Positions 2,393 through 19,997 of a stretch of DNA of 64,000 nt are shown here, piece after piece. The translations under genes were made by a program, and so were the position numbers. The notes beneath the pieces are model-generated. The model did no database searches, was not told where the DNA came from, and was given only the letters and a program-made list of their open reading frames with translations. The number at the start of each line of letters is the position of its first letter. Within the stretch, counting starts at the first letter, position 1. This DNA is from Oceanisphaera profunda (GTDB lineage Bacteria > Pseudomonadota > Gammaproteobacteria > Enterobacterales > Aeromonadaceae), in contig NZ_CP021377.1 of assembly GCF_002157895.1 (NCBI RefSeq), forward strand, positions 1,116,001-1,180,000, written 5' to 3'.

Positions 2393-2474
2393 ACAGTTCT
2401 TAAAGGCTGAGGATTTCTTGGCCACGCTTTTTTGTGGTGAGAATCACGGAGCAACACGGACGAAGAGCAACAAG

Positions 2475-2600
2475 GAGCAAGCGAAGGAGCAAGCGAAGGA
2501 GCAAGCGAAGGAGCAAGCGAAGGAGCAAGCGAAGGAGCAAGCGAAAGAGCAAGCGAAAGAGCAAGCGAAAGAGCAAGCGAAAGAGCAAGCGAAAGAGCAG
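2475..2600. repeat. 12-bp minisatellite, ten units plus a partial
   Basis: Ten perfect-length copies of GAGCAAGCGAAR from 2475 to 2594 plus a partial GAGCAG. Units 1-5 end in GAAG and units 6-10 end in GAAA, so the array looks like two blocks each expanded from a single founder. It lies between the ABC ATPase and the YkgJ-type gene. It is open in several frames (EQAK-type or RSKR-type repeats), but no start, Shine-Dalgarno sequence or conserved flank supports translation. Confidence 0.92.
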
Positions 2601-2645
2601 CGATTTTCGAAGATCTCATCAAACCATCAATCGGTCTTAATGTTA

Positions 2646-4388: not shown

Positions 4389-4799
4389 ATGGGATTTTTT
4401 AATAATATTCTTGAGAAACTCGGCATGGGCAAAGCTCAGGCTGCAACAACTGCTCCTGGTAAACCGACTGATACACCTACTCCTGCTAGCCCTGCTGAGA
4501 CGCAAGCGCAGGAAACGGCTGCTCCCGCCCCAGTGCAAAGCGTCGATGTTACCGCTCAGCTAGAACAGCGTGCGGCGGCCAGCTCGCAAAAGTTAAACTG
4601 GCGCACGTCTATCGTTGATCTATTGAAGCTGCTCGATATCGACAGCAGCTTAACGGCACGTAAAGAGCTCGCCACCGAACTCGGCTGCCCTGCAGATTTA
4701 ATGGCAGACTCCGCCAAGATGAATACCTGGTTGCATAAAGCCGTGCTGGCACGCATCGCCGCCAACGGTGGTAATGTACCCCAAGATCTATTGGACTGA
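4389..4799 (+). CDS. DUF3597 family protein
   Basis: A 136-residue small soluble protein. The N-terminus (MGFFNNILEKLGMGK) is followed by a Pro/Ala/Thr-rich linker (about residues 18-50) and a compact C-terminal domain with LNWRTSIVDLLKLLDIDSSL, ARKELATELGCP and MNTWLHKAVL. This matches the layout of DUF3597 proteins, which have no established function. A strong Shine-Dalgarno AAGGAG lies 7 bases before the ATG at 4389. The upstream in-frame ATG at 4356 is unlikely. It is followed by a bidirectional terminator and then the cassette array. Confidence 0.82.
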   Translation: MGFFNNILEKLGMGKAQAATTAPGKPTDTPTPASPAETQAQETAAPAPVQSVDVTAQLEQRAAASSQKLNWRTSIVDLLKLLDIDSSLTARKELATELGCPADLMADSAKMNTWLHKAVLARIAANGGNVPQDLLD

Positions 4800-4854: not shown

Positions 4855-4902
4855 ACCAAAAAGGCGTGAGGGTGTTAACCCGCACGCCTTTGGGTTTTTC
4901 TA
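4855..4902 (+). terminator. Rho-independent terminator after DUF3597
   Basis: The hairpin GGCGTGAGGGT/ACCCGCACGCC has a TTAA-type loop and is followed by T-rich sequence on the plus strand; an A-run precedes it, so it may act on both strands. The same hairpin recurs at 8893-8924 and 10946-10976, so terminators in this genome come from a shared repeat. Confidence 0.7.
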
Positions 4903-4941: not shown

Positions 4942-5021
4942 TTATAACGACGCGCACAACGGCACGAGCGAAGCGAGTGTCCGGCGCCGTATAAGGCGCG
5001 AATTGCTTCGCTTTGTTATGC
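4942..5021 (-). other. attC-like recombination site 1 (array end)
   Basis: The outer core sites are TTATAAC (4942-4948) and GTTATGC (5015-5021), with an imperfectly paired interior containing GCGC and GAAGC. Length is 80 bp. The core deviates from RYYYAAC/GTTRRRY, as is common in chromosomal arrays. It lies downstream of the minus-strand gene at 5299-5670. This is the weakest of the five sites. Confidence 0.5.
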
Positions 5022-5298
5022 CGTGTGGAACTGATACAGACAATCTCTATTTTCTGGCAATATTAGGAATTACCTCCTTCATAGATTACTCCAGTTTTCT
5101 CCCGTGTATTGCAAAGATCTTCAGAAATAGAGAAGTAAAATTGGGCAGCATCGCTAGTTTTTTACCAATTGTGATCAGCAATTCTAGCATCCTCAACATA
5201 ATATTCGCTTTGACCAACTCGTTCATTCATTTAAGGTTGTTGGAAGGATACATTGGGATGTGTGTTATAAAACCTAATTGCTTGAATGTCACTCATAT

Positions 5299-5670
5299 TT
5301 ATGTGTTCGTGCCACTTTTTTTTGTATCGCCAATATCTTTAGTCCACTCCAAAGCCGAGATGTTGGCTCCTAACCCACAGAGAAACCCAAGTATTGCCAA
5401 TACAATTGACGCTTGACTTGACTCAAAAATACCACCTATAAAATATCCAGCAACTGCCCATCCAACGCTAAATACAAGGATAAGCAATATTGCAATTTGC
5501 TTAATAAAAAGGCATATCATGAGTGCTAGCAGAACGCCACCACCCCAGAACCAAGATTGAAAATAGACACCTACAGCTATTGCCGTTATACCAATTTCAG
5601 CAAAAAGTATATTTGCGTTATCTTCATTGAATTGGGCCTTGGTAATACCTTTCCGTACATCGTCACTCAT
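5299..5670 (-). CDS. Cassette-encoded small integral membrane protein, unknown function
   Basis: A 123-residue protein I do not recognise. A short polar N-terminus (MSDDVRKGITKAQFNEDN) is followed by three to four hydrophobic segments (about residues 22-40, 43-62, 63-82, 85-102) and a charged tail ending KKSGTNT. AGGAAA lies 7 bases before the ATG. The gene is AT-rich compared with the flanking housekeeping genes. It sits between an attC-like site upstream (5755-5815, on its 5' side) and one downstream (4942-5021), so it is the fifth cassette counting from 8.3 kb. About 280 bp of apparently non-coding sequence follows before its attC. Confidence 0.65.
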   Translation of the reverse strand: MSDDVRKGITKAQFNEDNANILFAEIGITAIAVGVYFQSWFWGGGVLLALMICLFIKQIAILLILVFSVGWAVAGYFIGGIFESSQASIVLAILGFLCGLGANISALEWTKDIGDTKKSGTNT

Positions 5671-5754
5671 ATAAATTTCCTATGGTTATCAAATGATCGA
5701 ATCCATCATTGGGTTAAGGCGTTTTCTTGTAGAAGGCGCCGAACATTGCGAACT

Positions 5755-5815
5755 ACATAACGTTTAAGCTAACCGGCCGCGCGTTAGCGCGGTCGGGTTG
5801 AGTTAATTGTTAAGG
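5755..5815 (-). other. attC recombination site 2
   Basis: The outer cores are ACATAAC (5755-5761) and GTTAAGG (5809-5815). The inner arms TTTAAGCTAACC and GGTTGAGTTAATT pair imperfectly, and the central stem CGGCCGCGC/GCGCGGTCG has a TTAG loop. Length is 61 bp. The stop codon of the 5817-6248 gene abuts the site, as is typical for integron cassettes. Confidence 0.72.
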
Positions 5816-5816
5816 C

Positions 5817-6248
5817 TTACTTTAATTCGTTATAAGCTTTCATATTTGAATTGTATAGCATCTCAATAGTAGAAAAATTGGGATAATACCTATCAAGTTG
5901 TTTATTCAAAACTCTTAACTTGACGTTATTCAGAGTTAGTGAGCAGAGTTTTTTGTATGATTTAATATTTGAATCAACAAGCATTTTTTGAGTTGAATAA
6001 GAATCTGGATATTTCCTTCTCATTTCATTTTTGACATCAGAATATGCTTTCTCGTATCCAATAGAGCATATTGGATTATTGCTTGGTGGAATCGTATTTT
6101 GTTGTTTTATTTGCTTTGTTTTTGGTGAACAATCTTCAGAACTAGATGCATACCATGTTTCACCCACTTGGCACATTGCGTAACTGTTGGGTATATACAA
6201 AAGCGCCATAAATATGATTAAAAAACGTAATAGCACTTTGTTCTCCAT
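5817..6248 (-). CDS. Cassette-encoded exported protein, unknown function
   Basis: A 143-residue protein I do not recognise. Residues 1-24 form a signal peptide (LLRFLIIFMALLYIPNSYA), so the mature protein, beginning MCQVGETWYA, is probably periplasmic. It carries four or five cysteines and two related helical stretches: NEMRRKYPDSYSTQKMLVDSN and, later, LDRYYPNFSTIEMLYNSN, which suggest an internal duplication of a 'YP..ST..ML..SN' unit. The start lies 6 bp from the preceding attC and has no clear Shine-Dalgarno sequence. Low GC and the attC borders mark it as a gene cassette. Confidence 0.65.
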   Translation of the reverse strand: MENKVLLRFLIIFMALLYIPNSYAMCQVGETWYASSSEDCSPKTKQIKQQNTIPPSNNPICSIGYEKAYSDVKNEMRRKYPDSYSTQKMLVDSNIKSYKKLCSLTLNNVKLRVLNKQLDRYYPNFSTIEMLYNSNMKAYNELK

Positions 6249-6254
6249 TTTTGA

Positions 6255-6353
6255 GTTTAACGCTTTGCTAATGGCCTGCCGCAGCGCAGCGTAGGAAGTC
6301 CCGTGGAGGCCACGTTTTTTGTGGCCGGAACGAAATTAAGCGACTTGTTAGGC
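6255..6353 (-). other. attC recombination site 3
   Basis: The outer cores GTTTAAC (6255-6261) and GTTAGGC (6347-6353) both fit RYYYAAC/GTTRRRY. The inner boxes GCTAAT and ATTAAGC pair with offset. The middle holds a further stem, GTGGAGGCCAC/GTGGCC, with a T-rich loop. Length is 99 bp. Confidence 0.8.
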
Positions 6354-6364
6354 CGCCTTTCCGT

Positions 6365-6742
6365 TTAGCAAGCCCCCGCCTGTTTTGCCCCGTAAGTTGC
6401 TTGACTCGAGGTGTACTTATCTCCATGGCTAGATGAAAGCAGCTCAATAAGCCCTTTGCACGAGAAACCTTGAATACTTAGGTATTGTTTTGCAGATTTT
6501 ACCGCCTGCTTATTCCAATCAATATTCATGCTATCGACAGCTACAGTTGCATCAGAAACGTTATAACCATCTCCATAGTCTGACGAGAGTTGCTCAATAA
6601 GACCGTTGCGTGAAAAGCCTTGGATGCTTATGTATTGCTGGGCAGACCTTACAGCATTTTTTTGAGGACCAGTTAAGCTATTGGCCCACGTAGGCGCAGC
6701 AGCAAACAAAACGGCAACCATCGCTAACTTCAAAAAATTCAT
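6365..6742 (-). CDS. Cassette-encoded periplasmic protein with two Ltp-like repeats (candidate phage-exclusion factor)
   Basis: A 125-residue protein. Residues 1-21 are a signal peptide with an AxA-type cleavage site (PTWA then NS). There is no lipobox, so it should be a soluble periplasmic protein rather than a lipoprotein. Two repeats follow, at about 29-71 and 79-121, sharing AV(R/K)SA.QY(I/L)SIQGFS and GLIE.LSS, then an 'SDATVAVD / SSQATYGAK' motif. This pattern matches the Ltp (host cell surface-exposed lipoprotein) helix-turn-helix repeat, known from phage TP-J34 Ltp, which blocks DNA injection of superinfecting phages. GGAGA lies about 9 bases before the ATG. It is flanked by attC sites 3 and 4. 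Domain recognition is by eye; an anti-phage role is inference. Confidence 0.75.
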   Translation of the reverse strand: MNFLKLAMVAVLFAAAPTWANSLTGPQKNAVRSAQQYISIQGFSRNGLIEQLSSDYGDGYNVSDATVAVDSMNIDWNKQAVKSAKQYLSIQGFSCKGLIELLSSSHGDKYTSSQATYGAKQAGAC

Positions 6743-6771
6743 ACTAATTTCTCCATACGTGAAAAATGTGA

Positions 6772-6827
6772 GCCTAACGCCTCAATCAGCCGACGCCTTA
6801 GCGGTCGGCTGCATTGATTTGTTAGGC
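6772..6827 (-). other. attC recombination site 4 (canonical)
   Basis: The outer cores GCCTAAC (6772-6778) and GTTAGGC (6821-6827) are exact inverse repeats. The inner arms CAATCAGCCGAC and GTCGGCTGCATTG pair with a one-base bulge, the feature that sets attC orientation, and the loop is GCCTTAGC. Length is 56 bp, a classic '59-base element'. Confidence 0.9.
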
Positions 6828-7117
6828 TTTTCTGCCGCAATGGCGCGATGACTGTTGCCCTCGCCCCATATATAATATGCATTTGAAAATGTAGCTAACA
6901 GACCGCTTAGCAAAACAAAAACGGCAAGATATTTGGCCATTCTGTAATTAAGCTCGCCAGATTTAACGCGCTTCCATTCATGTTTTAAGAGCGGTTTACT
7001 TGCCTCCCTCAAAGGATCACAAACCTTTCTCGCCTCTGACAATTCGTTATTATGATAGTGCTCTCTCGTTTTATAAAGCGCCGACAGAAAGGCATCATTT
7101 AATTTTTTTCCTTTCAC
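6782..7117 (-). CDS. Cassette-encoded membrane protein, second ORF of a two-gene cassette
   Basis: A 111-residue protein, unrecognised. A charged N-terminal half (MKGKKLNDAFLSALYKTREHYH) is followed by one TM segment (about residues 62-85, YLAVFVLLSGLLATFSNAYYIWG). The C-terminus NKSMQPTAKASAD is encoded by the attC stem itself, so the reading frame runs into the recombination site. This ending recurs in integron cassette proteins. The ATG overlaps the preceding gene's stop (ATGA), implying translational coupling. No attC separates the two, so both travel as one cassette. The predicted topology is a cytoplasmic N-terminal domain with one anchor. Confidence 0.68.
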   Translation of the reverse strand: MKGKKLNDAFLSALYKTREHYHNNELSEARKVCDPLREASKPLLKHEWKRVKSGELNYRMAKYLAVFVLLSGLLATFSNAYYIWGEGNSHRAIAAEKPNKSMQPTAKASAD

Positions 7118-7449
7118 ATTTTTTCACTGTCATTAATTCGAAAGATTATGTCGTTGTATGATTCGTTGACCCTTGCATATATTTCTTCCACATCTCGGGC
7201 CATCTCGAATTTATCTCGCTTTTCTTCCGGGCGCGCTGAATGATGGATATATAGTGTTGATAGGTATGTAAGTGATGAAATATATCGCGCGATAGAGTTT
7301 CTGAGCGAATTAATCCACTCCTGCCTAAACTCCGATATTTTATTTTCTTTCGATGCCACAAGATTTGTGAACGCGAAATATCCAGCAATTAAAGCAGCAA
7401 ACATTGCCCCCAATAAAACAACAGCGTTTTTCCCGATTACTGCGTCCAA
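7114..7449 (-). CDS. Cassette-encoded membrane-anchored protein, first ORF of a two-gene cassette (TTG start)
   Basis: About 111 residues, unrecognised. One N-terminal TM segment (AVVLLGAMFAALIAGYFAFTNLVA) is followed by a helical cytoplasmic domain (SEFRQEWINSLRNSIARYISSL, then DKFEMARDVEEIYARVNESYND). An in-frame ATG lies at 7521, but the 24 codons from there translate the attC stem (7468-7551). A proper Shine-Dalgarno AAGGAGAA is placed 8 bases before a TTG at 7449, giving a start LDAVIGKNAVV. I take TTG as the start. The ATGA overlap with the following ORF suggests the two proteins act together, possibly as a two-component membrane module. Confidence 0.65.
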   Translation of the reverse strand: MDAVIGKNAVVLLGAMFAALIAGYFAFTNLVASKENKISEFRQEWINSLRNSIARYISSLTYLSTLYIHHSARPEEKRDKFEMARDVEEIYARVNESYNDIIFRINDSEKM

Positions 7450-7467
7450 TCTATGTTCTCCTTGAGA

Positions 7468-7551
7468 GCCTAACGCTAAGCTTTGGGGCGGCTGGAGCGC
7501 AGCGTAAGACGTCCCAGCCACGATAGTGGCGACAATAGCGCCTTGTTAGTT
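7468..7551 (-). other. attC recombination site 5
   Basis: The outer cores are GCCTAAC (7468-7474) and GTTAGTT (7545-7551). The inner boxes GCTAAGC and AATAGCGCC pair imperfectly. The central part GGCTGG/CCAGCC with GACGTC forms a second stem. Length is 84 bp. The stop of the DUF2971-like gene falls inside the right core. Confidence 0.75.
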
Positions 7552-8235
7552 TTTCTTGAACACTTCGCCAACATAACTCTTAAAACCGTCCGGCAACCCA
7601 TTATGGAAGAATGCAAAATAGCACTTACAATTCCCTTGCGATATCTCGTCTTCACTGCATGTACATGCCTTAAAGGCCTCAATCTTTTGCTCGCCGTGAT
7701 GAATTACCGTTTTTTCGTCGTAAGGGAGAAAAGCTACAATCCTAAACTCATCTTCATGTTGGTAACGATAGTGTTTGGTAAATACTGCCTCATTAGCAGG
7801 TAAGTAAGAAATTCCTGCGTTATCTGTGTAATAGGTCACGTTTTTAGCGATGACCTCACCGCCAAGTTTTTCTTCAAATAAAAACTTCATAAACTCGATC
7901 AAATACTCAACGTTAAACTCAATGCATACATCTGCATTAAATTCCTCAAAAAGCTCTTCATCATTCTTTTTATTGCTTAGACAAATACACAAGCAATGTC
8001 TTGTAGGAAGCCTAAATTTTATATTTGAAGCAAAGTCTTCAGGAGGAAAGTCGATTCCCGCAAAATTTAACGTTATAGAGCCCGGTGAAAACTCAAACTT
8101 TTTAAACGCCTCGTCATCACGCATATTCTCGTTTTCGAGGCGAGAGTAATGTCGAATATCGCAAAATCGAATACTGGCGTTTTCTTCAACTAATCCTTTC
8201 AGAACATCCCATTTTCCATAAAGATATTTGTACAT
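7546..8235 (-). CDS. DUF2971-like cassette protein
   Basis: About 229 residues. The N-terminus MYKYLYGKWDVLKGLVEENASIRFCD follows the DUF2971 pattern ('YKY......l....i.fs.p..fND'). A later HYRYQHEDEFRIVAFL matches the conserved K/R..W..E.E.R motif region of that family. Two cysteine pairs (CTCSEDEISQGNCKC) near the C-terminus suggest a metal site. DUF2971 proteins are of unknown function and often occur in accessory and defence islands. The start is uncertain: ATG at 8235 fits the family, and ATGs at 8256 and 8271 are also in frame. It is the first cassette of the array in the direction of transcription and probably nearest the lost attI/promoter end. Confidence 0.7.
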   Translation of the reverse strand: MYKYLYGKWDVLKGLVEENASIRFCDIRHYSRLENENMRDDEAFKKFEFSPGSITLNFAGIDFPPEDFASNIKFRLPTRHCLCICLSNKKNDEELFEEFNADVCIEFNVEYLIEFMKFLFEEKLGGEVIAKNVTYYTDNAGISYLPANEAVFTKHYRYQHEDEFRIVAFLPYDEKTVIHHGEQKIEAFKACTCSEDEISQGNCKCYFAFFHNGLPDGFKSYVGEVFKKN

Positions 8236-8373
8236 GATCCCACCGAAAAATAACATTTTAATAGTGCGCATGCGTACTTGCGCTCATTGGACCAGATAGC
8301 AAAGAGCAAATAACCAACTGATCTTGTTGGTCATTTTTAACAACCACGCACCTTGCCATGCGATAAAACGCGC

Positions 8374-8499
8374 ATGCTCATTTTACTGCTTGATCATGCT
8401 CAGTATTAACGGGCGCACCAGATACAAGCCATTGATAAATAATCGGTTTAAAAATATTACTGAGCATATATGAGCATCAGGTTTCAGCAATACGAGCAT
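8374..8499. promoter_or_regulatory. Cluster of TGAGCAT heptamers upstream of the cassette array
   Basis: ATGCTCA occurs at 8374-8380 and 8396-8402. Its reverse complement TGAGCAT occurs at 8461-8467 and 8471-8477, with a related CGAGCAT at 8493-8499. Two copies in each orientation within 126 bp suggest a protein-binding or recombination region rather than coding sequence. No regulator is identified. Confidence 0.35.
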
Positions 8500-8523
8500 G
8501 CTAATAGAGCAACGGAAAATATA

Positions 8524-8539
8524 CTGTATAAACGCTCAG
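8524..8539. promoter_or_regulatory. LexA (SOS) box-like site
   Basis: CTGTATAAACGCTCAG fits the CTG-N10-CAG rule, with a good left half (CTGTATA) and a poor inner right half. It is about 290 bp upstream of the first cassette gene. Many integron integrase genes carry a LexA box in their promoter, so this could be a relic of a lost intI promoter. That is inference; chance is possible. Confidence 0.4.
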
Positions 8540-8890
8540 GCTTAGGGCCGCAACGCTCTGCATCTTCATTTCCATGAAGCATGGTTTTTATATGTGACCA
8601 TTTTGGACGGAGTGAGTGTGAAGTTCAATTAAAAAACCATACAAAATGTACCGTAATGCGACTAACTTTCAGAAAATATTGCGCTGCCTAAGAGCTAATG
8701 CCCTATGACGGCTCCGCCTCTTGTAATAAAGCCCAAATAAAAAGAGAGATCCTGATTTTCATCAGGATGACGGCAAATATTTTCCGCTGAGACGGGACTG
8801 CCGAATGCTCTTTATATAAAAATGGGCAGGCTACAAAACAGGATTTGAAGTTTGAGCGTAAGGCATACGCCGTGCTGAACACCGATATCA

Positions 8891-8926
8891 AAAAAGGCGT
8901 GAGGGTTTTATCCCTCACGCCTTACG
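8891..8926 (-). terminator. Terminator of the glutamate-synthase-like gene
   Basis: GGCGTGAGGG/CCCTCACGCC hairpin with a TTTTAT loop, followed on the minus strand by TTTTTTGATA. It belongs to the same family as those at 4855 and 10945. Confidence 0.75.
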
Positions 8927-8958: not shown

Positions 8959-10521
8959 CTATCGGCCTTGTTCCATAATTTCCGGCTTTAAGCGGCGTGA
9001 TGTTTCTGGGTACAGCAGGTTAAGTGCTACCGCGCCACCATCGACCACCACGGCGGCATGCTCGCGATTAAGCAACCTTGGCTCTGCCACGCCACAAGAG
9101 TGCGCAATACTTTCTACCTCATGTACCAGGTTATTATGGTAGCTAGCGATGCGCGAGGCTTTTACATCAGGTACTAAGCCTTGTTGTAAGCGGGGATTGT
9201 GAGTGGTGATACCGGTCGGGCAGGTATTCTTATTACATTGCAGCGCTTGAATACATCCCAGCCCAAACAAGAAACCGCGTGCAGAAACTACAAAGTCGGC
9301 GCCCATGCAAATAGCGACGGCCACGTCGGTGGGGTTTATCAGCTTGCCAGAGGCAATAACGCGAATGCGATCTCTTAAATCGTGGCGAATCAGCTGATTA
9401 ACTAACAGCGGCAGGCTGTCTCGCAGGGGTAAACCCACACTGTCCATCAGTGGCATAGGTGCGGCACCCGTGCCGCCGTCCGAACTGTCTAGCGTGATAA
9501 AATCCGGGGCAAAATCTGCTCCTCTGGCATTCACGCGCTCACAAAACTCGGTGAGCCAATGAGTGGTACCCAGTACCAATTTAAAACCCACCGGCTTGCC
9601 AGTGACCTCTCGCACATGCACCACAAAATCGAGCAGCGTATCAATACAGCTAATTTCTGGATGGCGGTTGGGGCTAATCGAAGCCTCGCCAACTGCAATG
9701 CCACGGGTTTGGGCTATTTCTACGGTGACTTTTTCGGCAGGGAGTATGCCGCCTTTACCCGGCTTAGCGCCTTGTGAGAGCTTGATTTCAAACATTTTTA
9801 CTTGCTCAAGATCGGCCAAGGCTTTTAGTTTGCCATCATCCAGCTTGCCCTGTTCATCGCGCACGCCGTATTTAGCGGTACCGATTTGAAAGACAATGTC
9901 GCCGCCGCCTTCTAAGTGATAGGGGGATAATCCGCCTTCGCCGGTATTCATCCAGCAACCGGCTTTAGCAGCACCCATGCTCAAGGCTTGAATAGCAGGT
10001 TTAGATAAAGCACCAAAACTCATGCCGGAGATATTAAAAAAGGACGGGGCATCGTAAGGCACGCGGCAGTGGGTACCAATACGCATGGGCTGGGTTTGGG
10101 CGGCGTCTTCTTCCAGCGTAGGAAACGGGCAGTTTAAGAAGTAATAGGTGCCGGGTTTGGCAATGTCTCGGGTAGAGCCGAACGCCACTGTGTTATCGAC
10201 GTTTTTAGCGGCTCGGTATACCCAAGAGCGCTGCGCTCGGTTAAAGGGCATTTCTTCTCTGTCCATGGCAAAGAAATACTGGCGAAAAAACTCACCTAAG
10301 TGCTCAAACATATAGCGAAAGCGGCCAATAATGGGGTAGTTTCGGCGAATACTGTGCATGGTTTGGCGCTTATCTGCGCGGTACATTCTCAGCCCAGTAA
10401 TTGCTAAGCCCACAATCGTCAGTAGTAATACGCTACCCACCACGACGATAAAAATAACGGCTGCTTGAGTCCAACTTTCATTCATAGGGCTATTTATCCG
10501 GTCAGTAAAAAATCCGCTCAT
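8959..10521 (-). CDS. FMN-binding glutamate synthase family protein (GltB central/FMN domain only)
   Basis: A 520-residue protein. An N-terminal TM segment (about residues 18-43, AAVIFIVVVGSVLLLTIVG) is followed by a full glutamate-synthase FMN/TIM-barrel domain: FFNISGMSFGALSKPAIQAL, GEGG, QIGTAKYG, FEIKLSQGAKPGKGG, DSSDGGTGAAP and, near residue 430, CIQALQCNKNTCPTG with the three cysteines of a 3Fe-4S cluster. It lacks the amidotransferase domain of GltB, so it cannot by itself be classical GOGAT. These stand-alone membrane-anchored proteins are widespread and their reaction is unestablished. It stands alone with its own terminator. ATG at 10521 is used; an internal ATG at 10485 is possible. 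Confidence 0.85.
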   Translation of the reverse strand: MSGFFTDRINSPMNESWTQAAVIFIVVVGSVLLLTIVGLAITGLRMYRADKRQTMHSIRRNYPIIGRFRYMFEHLGEFFRQYFFAMDREEMPFNRAQRSWVYRAAKNVDNTVAFGSTRDIAKPGTYYFLNCPFPTLEEDAAQTQPMRIGTHCRVPYDAPSFFNISGMSFGALSKPAIQALSMGAAKAGCWMNTGEGGLSPYHLEGGGDIVFQIGTAKYGVRDEQGKLDDGKLKALADLEQVKMFEIKLSQGAKPGKGGILPAEKVTVEIAQTRGIAVGEASISPNRHPEISCIDTLLDFVVHVREVTGKPVGFKLVLGTTHWLTEFCERVNARGADFAPDFITLDSSDGGTGAAPMPLMDSVGLPLRDSLPLLVNQLIRHDLRDRIRVIASGKLINPTDVAVAICMGADFVVSARGFLFGLGCIQALQCNKNTCPTGITTHNPRLQQGLVPDVKASRIASYHNNLVHEVESIAHSCGVAEPRLLNREHAAVVVDGGAVALNLLYPETSRRLKPEIMEQGR

Positions 10522-19109: not shown

Positions 19110-19997
19110 TTAGCCTCTTGGATGGTGCTCTTGGTGTAGGGCATTGAGTCTGTGGGTGGCGACGTGGGTGTAGATTTGGGTGGTGGATAAATCTGAGTGG
19201 CCCAAGAGCATTTGTACCACGCGCAGGTCAGCGCCGTGGTTTAAAAGATGGGTAGCAAAGGCGTGGCGCAGGGTGTGCGGCGATAAGTCATTGTTAATGC
19301 CGGCGCGCAGGGCGTAGATTTTAATGCGATGCCAAAATGTTTGGCGGGTCATTTGTCGGGCGCGACGCGACGGAAATACCACATCAGACGGCTGCTCTCC
19401 CAGAAGAAAAGCGCGCGCTTCTTTTAAATAACGCTCCAGCCAGTGCAATGCCTCTTCGCCCATGGGCACTAAGCGTTCTTTATTACCCTTGCCGGTGACG
19501 CGTACTAAGCCTTGGCGCAAGCTGATGCTTTCCATAGAAAGACTGACTAATTCTGTGACCCGCAAGCCCGTGGCGTAGAGCAGTTCCAGCATGGCTTTAT
19601 CGCGCAGCTCAAGCGGATCTGCTACCTCTGGCGCGTCCAGTAGATTTAACACCTGTTGCTCACTTAAGTCTTTGGGTAAGCGTTTGGGTAATTTAGGGCC
19701 GGCAATCAAGATGCTGGGGTCATCCACACGCAGCTGCTCGCGATGCAGATACTGAAAAAAGCGCCGCAATACACTGAGCATACGTGCCGTGCTGCTGGCC
19801 TTAAAGCCTAGGTCCAAACGATGGGCTAAATACTGCTGCAGGGTTAAACCTTCTACGGCGACCAAGCTATCGCCCTCGCCGTCTAACCAGCGAGCAAAGT
19901 GTGTTAAGTCACTGCGATAGGATGCCAGCGTATTATCTGCCAGCCCCTTTTCCAGCCACAGCGTATCTACAAATTGTTCAATTAATGGATAACTCAT
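19110..19997 (-). CDS. xerD: Site-specific tyrosine recombinase XerD
   Basis: 295 residues. Catalytic residues of the tyrosine recombinases are all present: R146 (ATGLRVTEL), K170, H241 and R244 (SPHTLRHAFATHLL), H267 (LLGHS) and Y276 (TQIYTHV). An N-terminal SAM-like core-binding domain covers about residues 1-95. With XerC it resolves chromosome dimers at dif under FtsK control. GGAG lies 5 bases before the ATG at 19997; an in-frame GTG at 20003 overlaps that ribosome-binding site, so ATG is preferred. It is divergent from fldB, as in enterics. It lacks the extra internal patch of integron integrases and is not an IntI. Confidence 0.95.
   Translation of the reverse strand: MSYPLIEQFVDTLWLEKGLADNTLASYRSDLTHFARWLDGEGDSLVAVEGLTLQQYLAHRLDLGFKASSTARMLSVLRRFFQYLHREQLRVDDPSILIAGPKLPKRLPKDLSEQQVLNLLDAPEVADPLELRDKAMLELLYATGLRVTELVSLSMESISLRQGLVRVTGKGNKERLVPMGEEALHWLERYLKEARAFLLGEQPSDVVFPSRRARQMTRQTFWHRIKIYALRAGINNDLSPHTLRHAFATHLLNHGADLRVVQMLLGHSDLSTTQIYTHVATHRLNALHQEHHPRG

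Follow-up and report, generated by a model that had tools for sequence, protein, structure and literature searches.

A cassette array without an integrase gene at a dispersed attI-type core in Oceanisphaera profunda

The stretch of DNA analysed here (the window, 64,000 nucleotides) comprises bases 1,116,001-1,180,000 of the complete 3,508,860-bp chromosome of Oceanisphaera profunda (genome G000) and carries an integron cassette array that starts at an attI-type core. Five cassettes with six genes, all on the minus strand, make up the array, and we consider it probable that they were seeded at a dispersed attI platform without an integrase gene (intI) of its own. What is new is that the array hangs on the attI core of a dispersed family, whose members mostly have no intI and are filled in one orientation from one base. 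This reading builds on the attC sites, on an attI core that matches attI sites linked to intI, on interspecies breaks at that core, on the dispersal of such cores, and on cassette or attC sequence shared between intI-linked and intI-less arrays.

The attC sites, the attI-type core and the missing integrase

From the letters alone, an initial annotation had placed five attC-like sites in this region and classed it as a cassette array without integrase (CALIN), but missed the attI core at the array start and the dispersed family of that core. The attC sites were scored with a covariance model, R1, built from 46 attC sites of relatives, the window sites being excluded. A hand-made scan had supplied 74 sites of relatives, of which 56 non-redundant ones were kept and 46 aligned, ten mostly longer ones being omitted; two of the 46 represent the same locus in the relatives G014 and G022. 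The scan was tuned after the window sites had been viewed, so that, although no window sequence entered the model, the design was not blind, and E-values from R1 are rough owing to a short calibration. A first hand-made attC scan was dropped as too noisy.

On both strands of the window and up to E = 10, R1 returned exactly the five annotated sites, all on the minus strand. The site of cassette 2 (6772-6827) lived up to its description as textbook, with 47.5 bits and a folding z of −6.9; the sites of cassette 1 (7468-7551) and cassette 3 (6255-6353) reached 36.4 and 37.3 bits, and those of cassette 4 (5755-5815; 22.6 bits, E = 0.0015) and cassette 5 (4942-5021; 20.7 bits, E = 0.0047) scored weakly. 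In a genome-wide R1 search, which scored 150 of 1282 first-look candidates, 5755-5815 appeared at E = 0.084, and the list from those 150 lacked 4942-5021 and 7468-7551. Single-strand folding of the plus strand was clear for 6772-6827 only and modest for 5755-5815 (z −2.9), with z values of −1.25, −0.05 and −0.82 for the remaining three; it was dropped as an attC test in favour of the covariance model because only one site of five clearly stood out. Rfam models at gathering scores gave no match in the window. Vibrio-type superintegrons consist of many near-identical attC sites; the five sites here measure 56-99 bp and are all different, in line with the contrast drawn at the outset.

At the right edge of the array, cassette 1 adjoins a 23-bp attI-type core, GCATGCGCACTATTAAAATGTTA (attI-B; 8251-8273, minus strand), with a predicted cut G|TTA between 8254 and 8253. 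The comparison set of 23 genomes (the genus set) includes Oceanisphaera, Oceanimonas and Zobellella, these genus names being inferred. With one mismatch, the core sequence is found some 300 bp upstream of intI in five of them (L058-L061 and L066, from G006, G008, G009, G015 and G019), and with two or three mismatches it stands upstream of intI in three others (L057, L062 and L065, from G004, G005 and G013). Allowing up to three mismatches, it occurs at 44 places in 20 of the 23 genomes, against 0 for a reversed control pattern. Scored with a site matrix, the window core is the only site of at least 8 bits in the window. R1 matches at E ≤ 0.001 were obtained in 22 of the 23 genomes.

Comparison with relatives delimits a conserved noncoding platform upstream of the core (8251-8639, minus strand). 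Its part 8357-8639 is 70-73% similar to a second locus, between tkt and an FKBP-type gene (identified by eye), in three other species (G006, G012 and G015); at all three of these tkt loci an attI-like core directly follows the shared part, with attC downstream. The platform holds a LexA-box-like 20-mer, GCCTGAGCGTTTATACAGTA (8522-8541, minus strand), which scores 13/20 against the E. coli consensus, with the right half intact and the left half degenerate, and whose distance to the core falls within the range of intI sites (245-285 bp upstream). A LexA-controlled promoter towards the cassettes was considered, and nothing beyond the position of the box supports one; for a sigma-70 cassette promoter in the platform there was no evidence, with 1 candidate against 2.0 in shuffles. 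At L031, L032, L033, L104 and L124, about 115 bases between an upstream GAGCATGAGCG-type repeat and the attI core are absent, the core directly following the repeat.

The complete 3.51-Mb G000 genome gave no match over the cut-off of the IntI family (TIGR02249, 265 bits), the best reaching 81 bits. Within the window, the IntI family matches only at about 19152-19952 (best piece 81 bits), presumably Xer; all 14 control genomes searched in this way likewise gave matches below the cut-off. No IntI match, even at E ≤ 1, lies upstream of the window core. The CALIN classification is thus upheld, with five minus-strand attC sites in a window that lacks IntI and a genome in which none reaches the family cut-off. 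In the genus set, 15 of 23 genomes have an IntI over the cut-off and 17 at E ≤ 1e-40; G000, G002, G011, G012, G014 and G018 have none at the latter threshold.

Two integrase types could be distinguished. Type B forms one group across genera (55-95% identity) and is 42-50% identical to type A, which occurs in G010, G017 and G022 and whose attI differs from the type B attI. G000 itself has a type-A locus (C1, about 3,406-3,416 kb) with nine attC matches at E ≤ 0.05, where of IntI only some 23 C-terminal residues (about 315-337) and the attI region were found. This scar recurs in G014, where it aligns with no large gap up to the GTTA of attI-A; beyond that point the cassettes differ. A stretch of about 200 bases where intI-A is missing (L255:6412-6600, L258) is nearly identical in G000 and G014, with both sides less so, and is perhaps a small mobile element. 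Besides the window and the type-A locus, G000 has three further attC loci, all of which start at attI-B-like sites: one with three mismatches, and two with an extra A that score 17.9 and 24.3 bits with the site matrix, as against at least 30.6.

The locus in relatives and the dispersed platforms

The block is not conserved at its locus in relatives; conservation was one of two outcomes that the initial annotation had named as speaking against it, and the other, low attC scores at most sites, was not obtained either. The flanks of the window array are found in G014 at 84-86%, enclosing two unrelated cassettes (HNH-type and RCC1-like, by eye), and in G022 at 78-83%, enclosing a single different one; all three genomes are intI-less here. 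Breaks had been anticipated at the site cores. On the right, homology resumes at 8250 (G014) or 8246 (G022), adjoining the attI core; on the left it ends at 4953 in G014, five bases within the R' core of the 4942-5021 site, a core lying at the left edge of the insertion, and at 4891 in G022. The breaks therefore lie at or a few bases from cores on the right, and on the left for G014.

The same pattern holds for other platforms. Among genus platforms, all 48 pairs that are at least 75% identical upstream drop to an identity of 0-0.13 right after the GTTA of the core (shuffled means 0.01-0.05; the pairs are not independent, and those with too little sequence were skipped). Between G000 and G014, first cassettes differ at all four attI-B platforms compared, and at all five orthologous platforms when type A is included.

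A degenerate form of the core was searched in a collection with one genome for each of 84,980 species and found in 90 stretches; loci were taken from 80 of these. Carriers include many Marinomonas, Marinobacterium, Shewanella salipaludis, Neptuniibacter, Aliidiomarina and others; several have multiple copies in a genome. After removal of 21 loci duplicating genus genomes, 104 sites were analysed. An IntI match (E < 1e-10) lies upstream of 21, at least three of these matches being short (L199, L209, L220); 74 have none at that threshold with at least 1300 bp upstream covered, and nine are too short to tell. IntI fragments are kept at L209, L220, L225 and L230, with weaker ones at L107 and L179; L225 and L230 are among the 74, with weaker matches of 6e-10 and 5e-7. 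Six attI-B-like sites occur in Shewanella salipaludis (L161, L181, L200, L219, L225), one of them beside intI and L225 with its IntI fragment.

The best LexA-like 20-mer falls 245-285 bp upstream of the core at 21 of 21 intI sites and at 39 of 74 intI-less sites, where position alone predicts about 7.6; if a score of 12/20 or more is also required, the counts are 21/21 and 34/74, against 104 of 1940 shuffles. Around the 104 sites, R1 at E < 0.01 gave 194 attC matches: 193 lie downstream of a site and share its orientation, one lies upstream, and the opposite strand has none. A script tally of two upstream arises from a match situated between the two sites of L161. Where at least 2.5 kb was available downstream, attC was present at 18 of 18 intI-class and 45 of 57 dispersed sites, counts in which some genus sites had themselves supplied R1 sequences and L119 is taken as intI-class by platform resemblance, its contig ending before any intI could be seen.

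Sequence is also shared between the two kinds of array. A dispersed site in G015 (L101) and an intI-linked attI in G013 (L130) agree at 96% over 125 bases from the core on and then at 98.5% over 2690 bases, L101 having an additional 1.1 kb or so. The intI-linked array of G019 and two dispersed ones have one attC type in common, at 94-99% identity, and the attC of cassette 3 in the window (6255-6353) is 92% identical over 91 bases to an attC of the intI-linked G001 array. Such sharing fits one cassette pool served by one specificity.

Of the 44 genus platforms, 37 went into a tree, the seven in which no alignable upstream element was seen being left out. It placed the nine intI-class platforms on one side of a branch (81/83) and in a separate group (99/99) a 14-member dispersed family, of which G002, G004, G013 and G019 each hold two or three copies. 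The window platform groups with those of G014 and G022 (100/99). Deeper joins are unsure, given a warning from the tree tool about meeting long branches.

Formation of the array

We infer that circular cassettes would have been inserted at the G|TTA of the attI-B core (8251-8273) by a type-B integron integrase, whether supplied in trans from another place in an ancestral genome, brought by a mobile element, or encoded by a copy that has since disappeared. On this view insertion would have proceeded from the attC at 4942-5021, the oldest part, to cassette 1, the most recent arrival. As the resident genome has no recognisable IntI, the array would be frozen unless an integrase enters.

Several observations weigh against this. 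Recombination was not observed, and insertion at G|TT is read from comparative breaks at GTTA. The relatives without an IntI match may have lost it independently, so that trans action need not be required at every site, and the IntI fragments at some dispersed platforms fit a decay of complete integrons equally well. The best LexA-like match is not at the intI-type distance at 35 of the 74 intI-less sites, 7 of the 44 genus sites show no alignable upstream element, and 12 of 57 dispersed sites have no attC in the downstream stretch examined, although one of them (L101) has a match beyond it. One of the 194 attC matches, at L224 in Aliidiomarina sedimenti, is found upstream of its site, with which it shares the orientation.

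The array could alternatively be an ordinary degraded integron: a complete type-B integron once stood at the locus, and intI was deleted while attI and the cassettes were left. The IntI fragments upstream of the box at L209, L220, L225 and L230 speak for such a course, and the type-A locus of G000 (C1:3406-3416 kb), with its IntI residues 315-337 or so, attI region and scar common to G014, is in just this state. Upstream of the window core, however, even the permissive search gave no IntI match, and G000, G014 and G022 all lack intI at this locus. Moreover, the 14-member platform family (99/99) stands apart from the nine intI-class platforms (81/83) and is present in two to three copies in four genomes, which is most simply explained by multiplication without intI, subject to the warning about meeting long branches. 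We regard a degraded integron as rather unlikely.

Insertion at a chance attG-like genomic site that merely resembles attI seems very improbable: IntI can use attG and attI-like secondary sites, according to PMC12901181 and PMC10127599, but the window core is one mismatch from five intI-linked attI sites, with the upstream element and the candidate LexA-like box, degenerate in its left half, at the same spacing, and the reversed-pattern control gave 0. Hardly credible is that homologous recombination or some other mobile element brought in the whole array at once, with no integrase ever acting here; G000 and G014 have no IntI at E ≤ 1e-40 and yet differ in the first cassettes of five orthologous platforms, and exchange of arrays via conserved flanks could produce those differences, but similarity stops at GTTA in 48 of 48 pairs, which flank recombination alone would not give.

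Seeding at an integrase-less platform thus remains our preferred reading, and a broader one may tentatively be built on it, which we hold as possible rather than probable: in these marine Gammaproteobacteria the integron might be a network and not a locus, in which a single type of integrase works on several dispersed attI platforms, and the platforms of lineages that have lost the integrase stay live, served in trans by visiting integrases. Bearing on this, G000 and G014 share the type-A intI deletion scar, yet the cassettes behind attI-A and four type-B platforms differ. Three courses would account for this: entry of integrases from outside after the shared loss, an exchange of arrays, or two losses of type-B IntI.

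The window array resembles a CALIN as IntegronFinder defines it, with at least two attC sites and no intI nearby, but its start is a cognate attI core preceded by a conserved element, and about attI outside class 1 the definition says nothing. With sedentary chromosomal integrons, whose intI is SOS-controlled, it shares the attI core, the single cassette orientation and, for its candidate LexA-like box, the spacing, but here intI is absent, so that there is no functional intI beside attI as in a complete integron, and genomes have several attI-like sites with few cassettes at each. LexA control of intI is described in PMC3108266. Insertions at attG likewise bring cassettes to chromosomal places away from the integron (Loot et al. 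2024, as cited in PMC12901181), whereas the targets here are copies of a true attI core with its upstream region and not divergent sites.

In a set of integrase-less arrays, the start is a copy of the integrase's own docking site, accompanied in about half of them by the control box. This makes a testable claim, that one integron may have several docking sites spread over a chromosome and that loss of the integrase need not end the use of a site. Such platforms would be overlooked by IntegronFinder because it does not detect attI outside class 1 (PMC9024848). A search of open-licence papers, a weak negative, gave no paper on an integron in Oceanisphaera or on multiple attI sites, and none combining CALIN, attI and LexA whose title and opening of the abstract appeared relevant; among the 12 of 80 papers listed for integrons and attI in Marinomonas, none mentions that genus.

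Cassette genes and neighbouring features

Cassette 1 (7474-8253, minus strand) extends from the attI core to the R' core of its attC and encodes a 230-residue protein of unknown function (7546-8238, minus strand), whose start is probably 8238 rather than 8271, judged by eye. The protein is 90% identical to one of Salinivibrio kushneri and 93% identical to a metagenome protein, and it has a weak PADLOC PDC-S31 candidate match (1.4e-5). Its motifs suggest a resemblance to DUF2971, a family that the Pfam search did not find, and its predicted structure (mean predicted local distance difference test score, pLDDT, 56.8) was too poor for a structure search. The attC sites of three cassettes match plasmid stretches over nearly their whole length at 91-93%, which lends these sites further support: 7472-7548 at 91% (Klebsiella), 6767-6825 at 93%, in records annotated blaDIM there, and 6258-6350 at 91% (Pseudoalteromonas). 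The records carry no attC label at these stretches. The unrelated plasmids and the Salinivibrio match support the mixed cassette origins suspected earlier.

Cassette 2 (6778-7473, minus strand, from attC cores, as are the bounds of cassettes 3 to 5) contains two genes. The first (7114-7449, minus strand; about 111 residues, probable TTG start set by eye) overlaps the next by four bases; a longer open reading frame, 7114-7521, starts inside attC, and by eye 7114-7449 is more likely. The second (6782-7117, minus strand; 111 residues) has one probable membrane segment, by eye, and ends inside attC. Against the defence database, cassette 2 gave chance-level matches only, and the proteins other than those of cassettes 1 and 2 gave none.

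Cassette 3 (6261-6777, minus strand) encodes a 125-residue Ltp-repeat protein (6365-6742, minus strand; PF07553, 2.5e-31), with matches to the PHROG superinfection exclusion family (2.6e-47) and PDB 4eqq (2.1e-7) and 13 relatives in predicted viral contigs. Its assignment to the superinfection-exclusion family is supported, as family membership, by these matches. It shares the Ltp repeats with the Ltp superinfection-exclusion lipoproteins (PF07553; PDB 4eqq), but is cassette-borne, is known here from sequence alone and by eye lacks a lipobox cysteine; an export signal or signal peptide was likewise judged by eye only. The cargo includes a superinfection-exclusion-family protein, and the phage-defence load proposed for the array is supported for this one cassette only, by family membership.

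Cassette 4 (5761-6260, minus strand) encodes a 143-residue protein, exported by eye (5817-6248, minus strand; phrog_25501, 2.3e-9), and cassette 5 (4948-5760, minus strand) a 123-residue membrane protein, by eye (5299-5670, minus strand; phrog_15014, 4.7e-33). Both are of unknown function, as are the PHROG phage families that they match.

The six genes occupy an AT-rich stretch with a G+C content of about 0.37-0.43 against about 0.50 around it. On its left lies a DUF3597 gene (4389-4799, plus strand; PF12200, 2.8e-43; in an 86% block in G014), which ends at 4799, and on its right a glutamate-synthase-like (GOGAT-like) flavin mononucleotide protein gene (8959-10521, minus strand; PF01645, 1.9e-85), which ends at 8959. 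In G014 (L026:7891-13105), a stretch of about 5.8 kb with nitric-oxide-reductase-like genes (by eye), which the window does not have, lies between a phosphoesterase gene and the DUF3597 gene. Terminator-like hairpins with similar GGCGTGAGGG-type stems are found on both sides of the insertion (8890-8923 and 4861-4900), and the 8890 copy has relatives at several positions across genus genomes. Short dispersed repeats at 8735-8777 and 8784-8839 have more copies in G000 (for example L036), and the 8735-8777 repeat has copies in relatives as well. Finally, two tandem arrays of 12-base repeats accompany an ABC-transporter ATPase-like gene (by eye), at window positions 2461-2603 (12.2 copies), just past its end, and 1519-1578 (5 copies), at its start.

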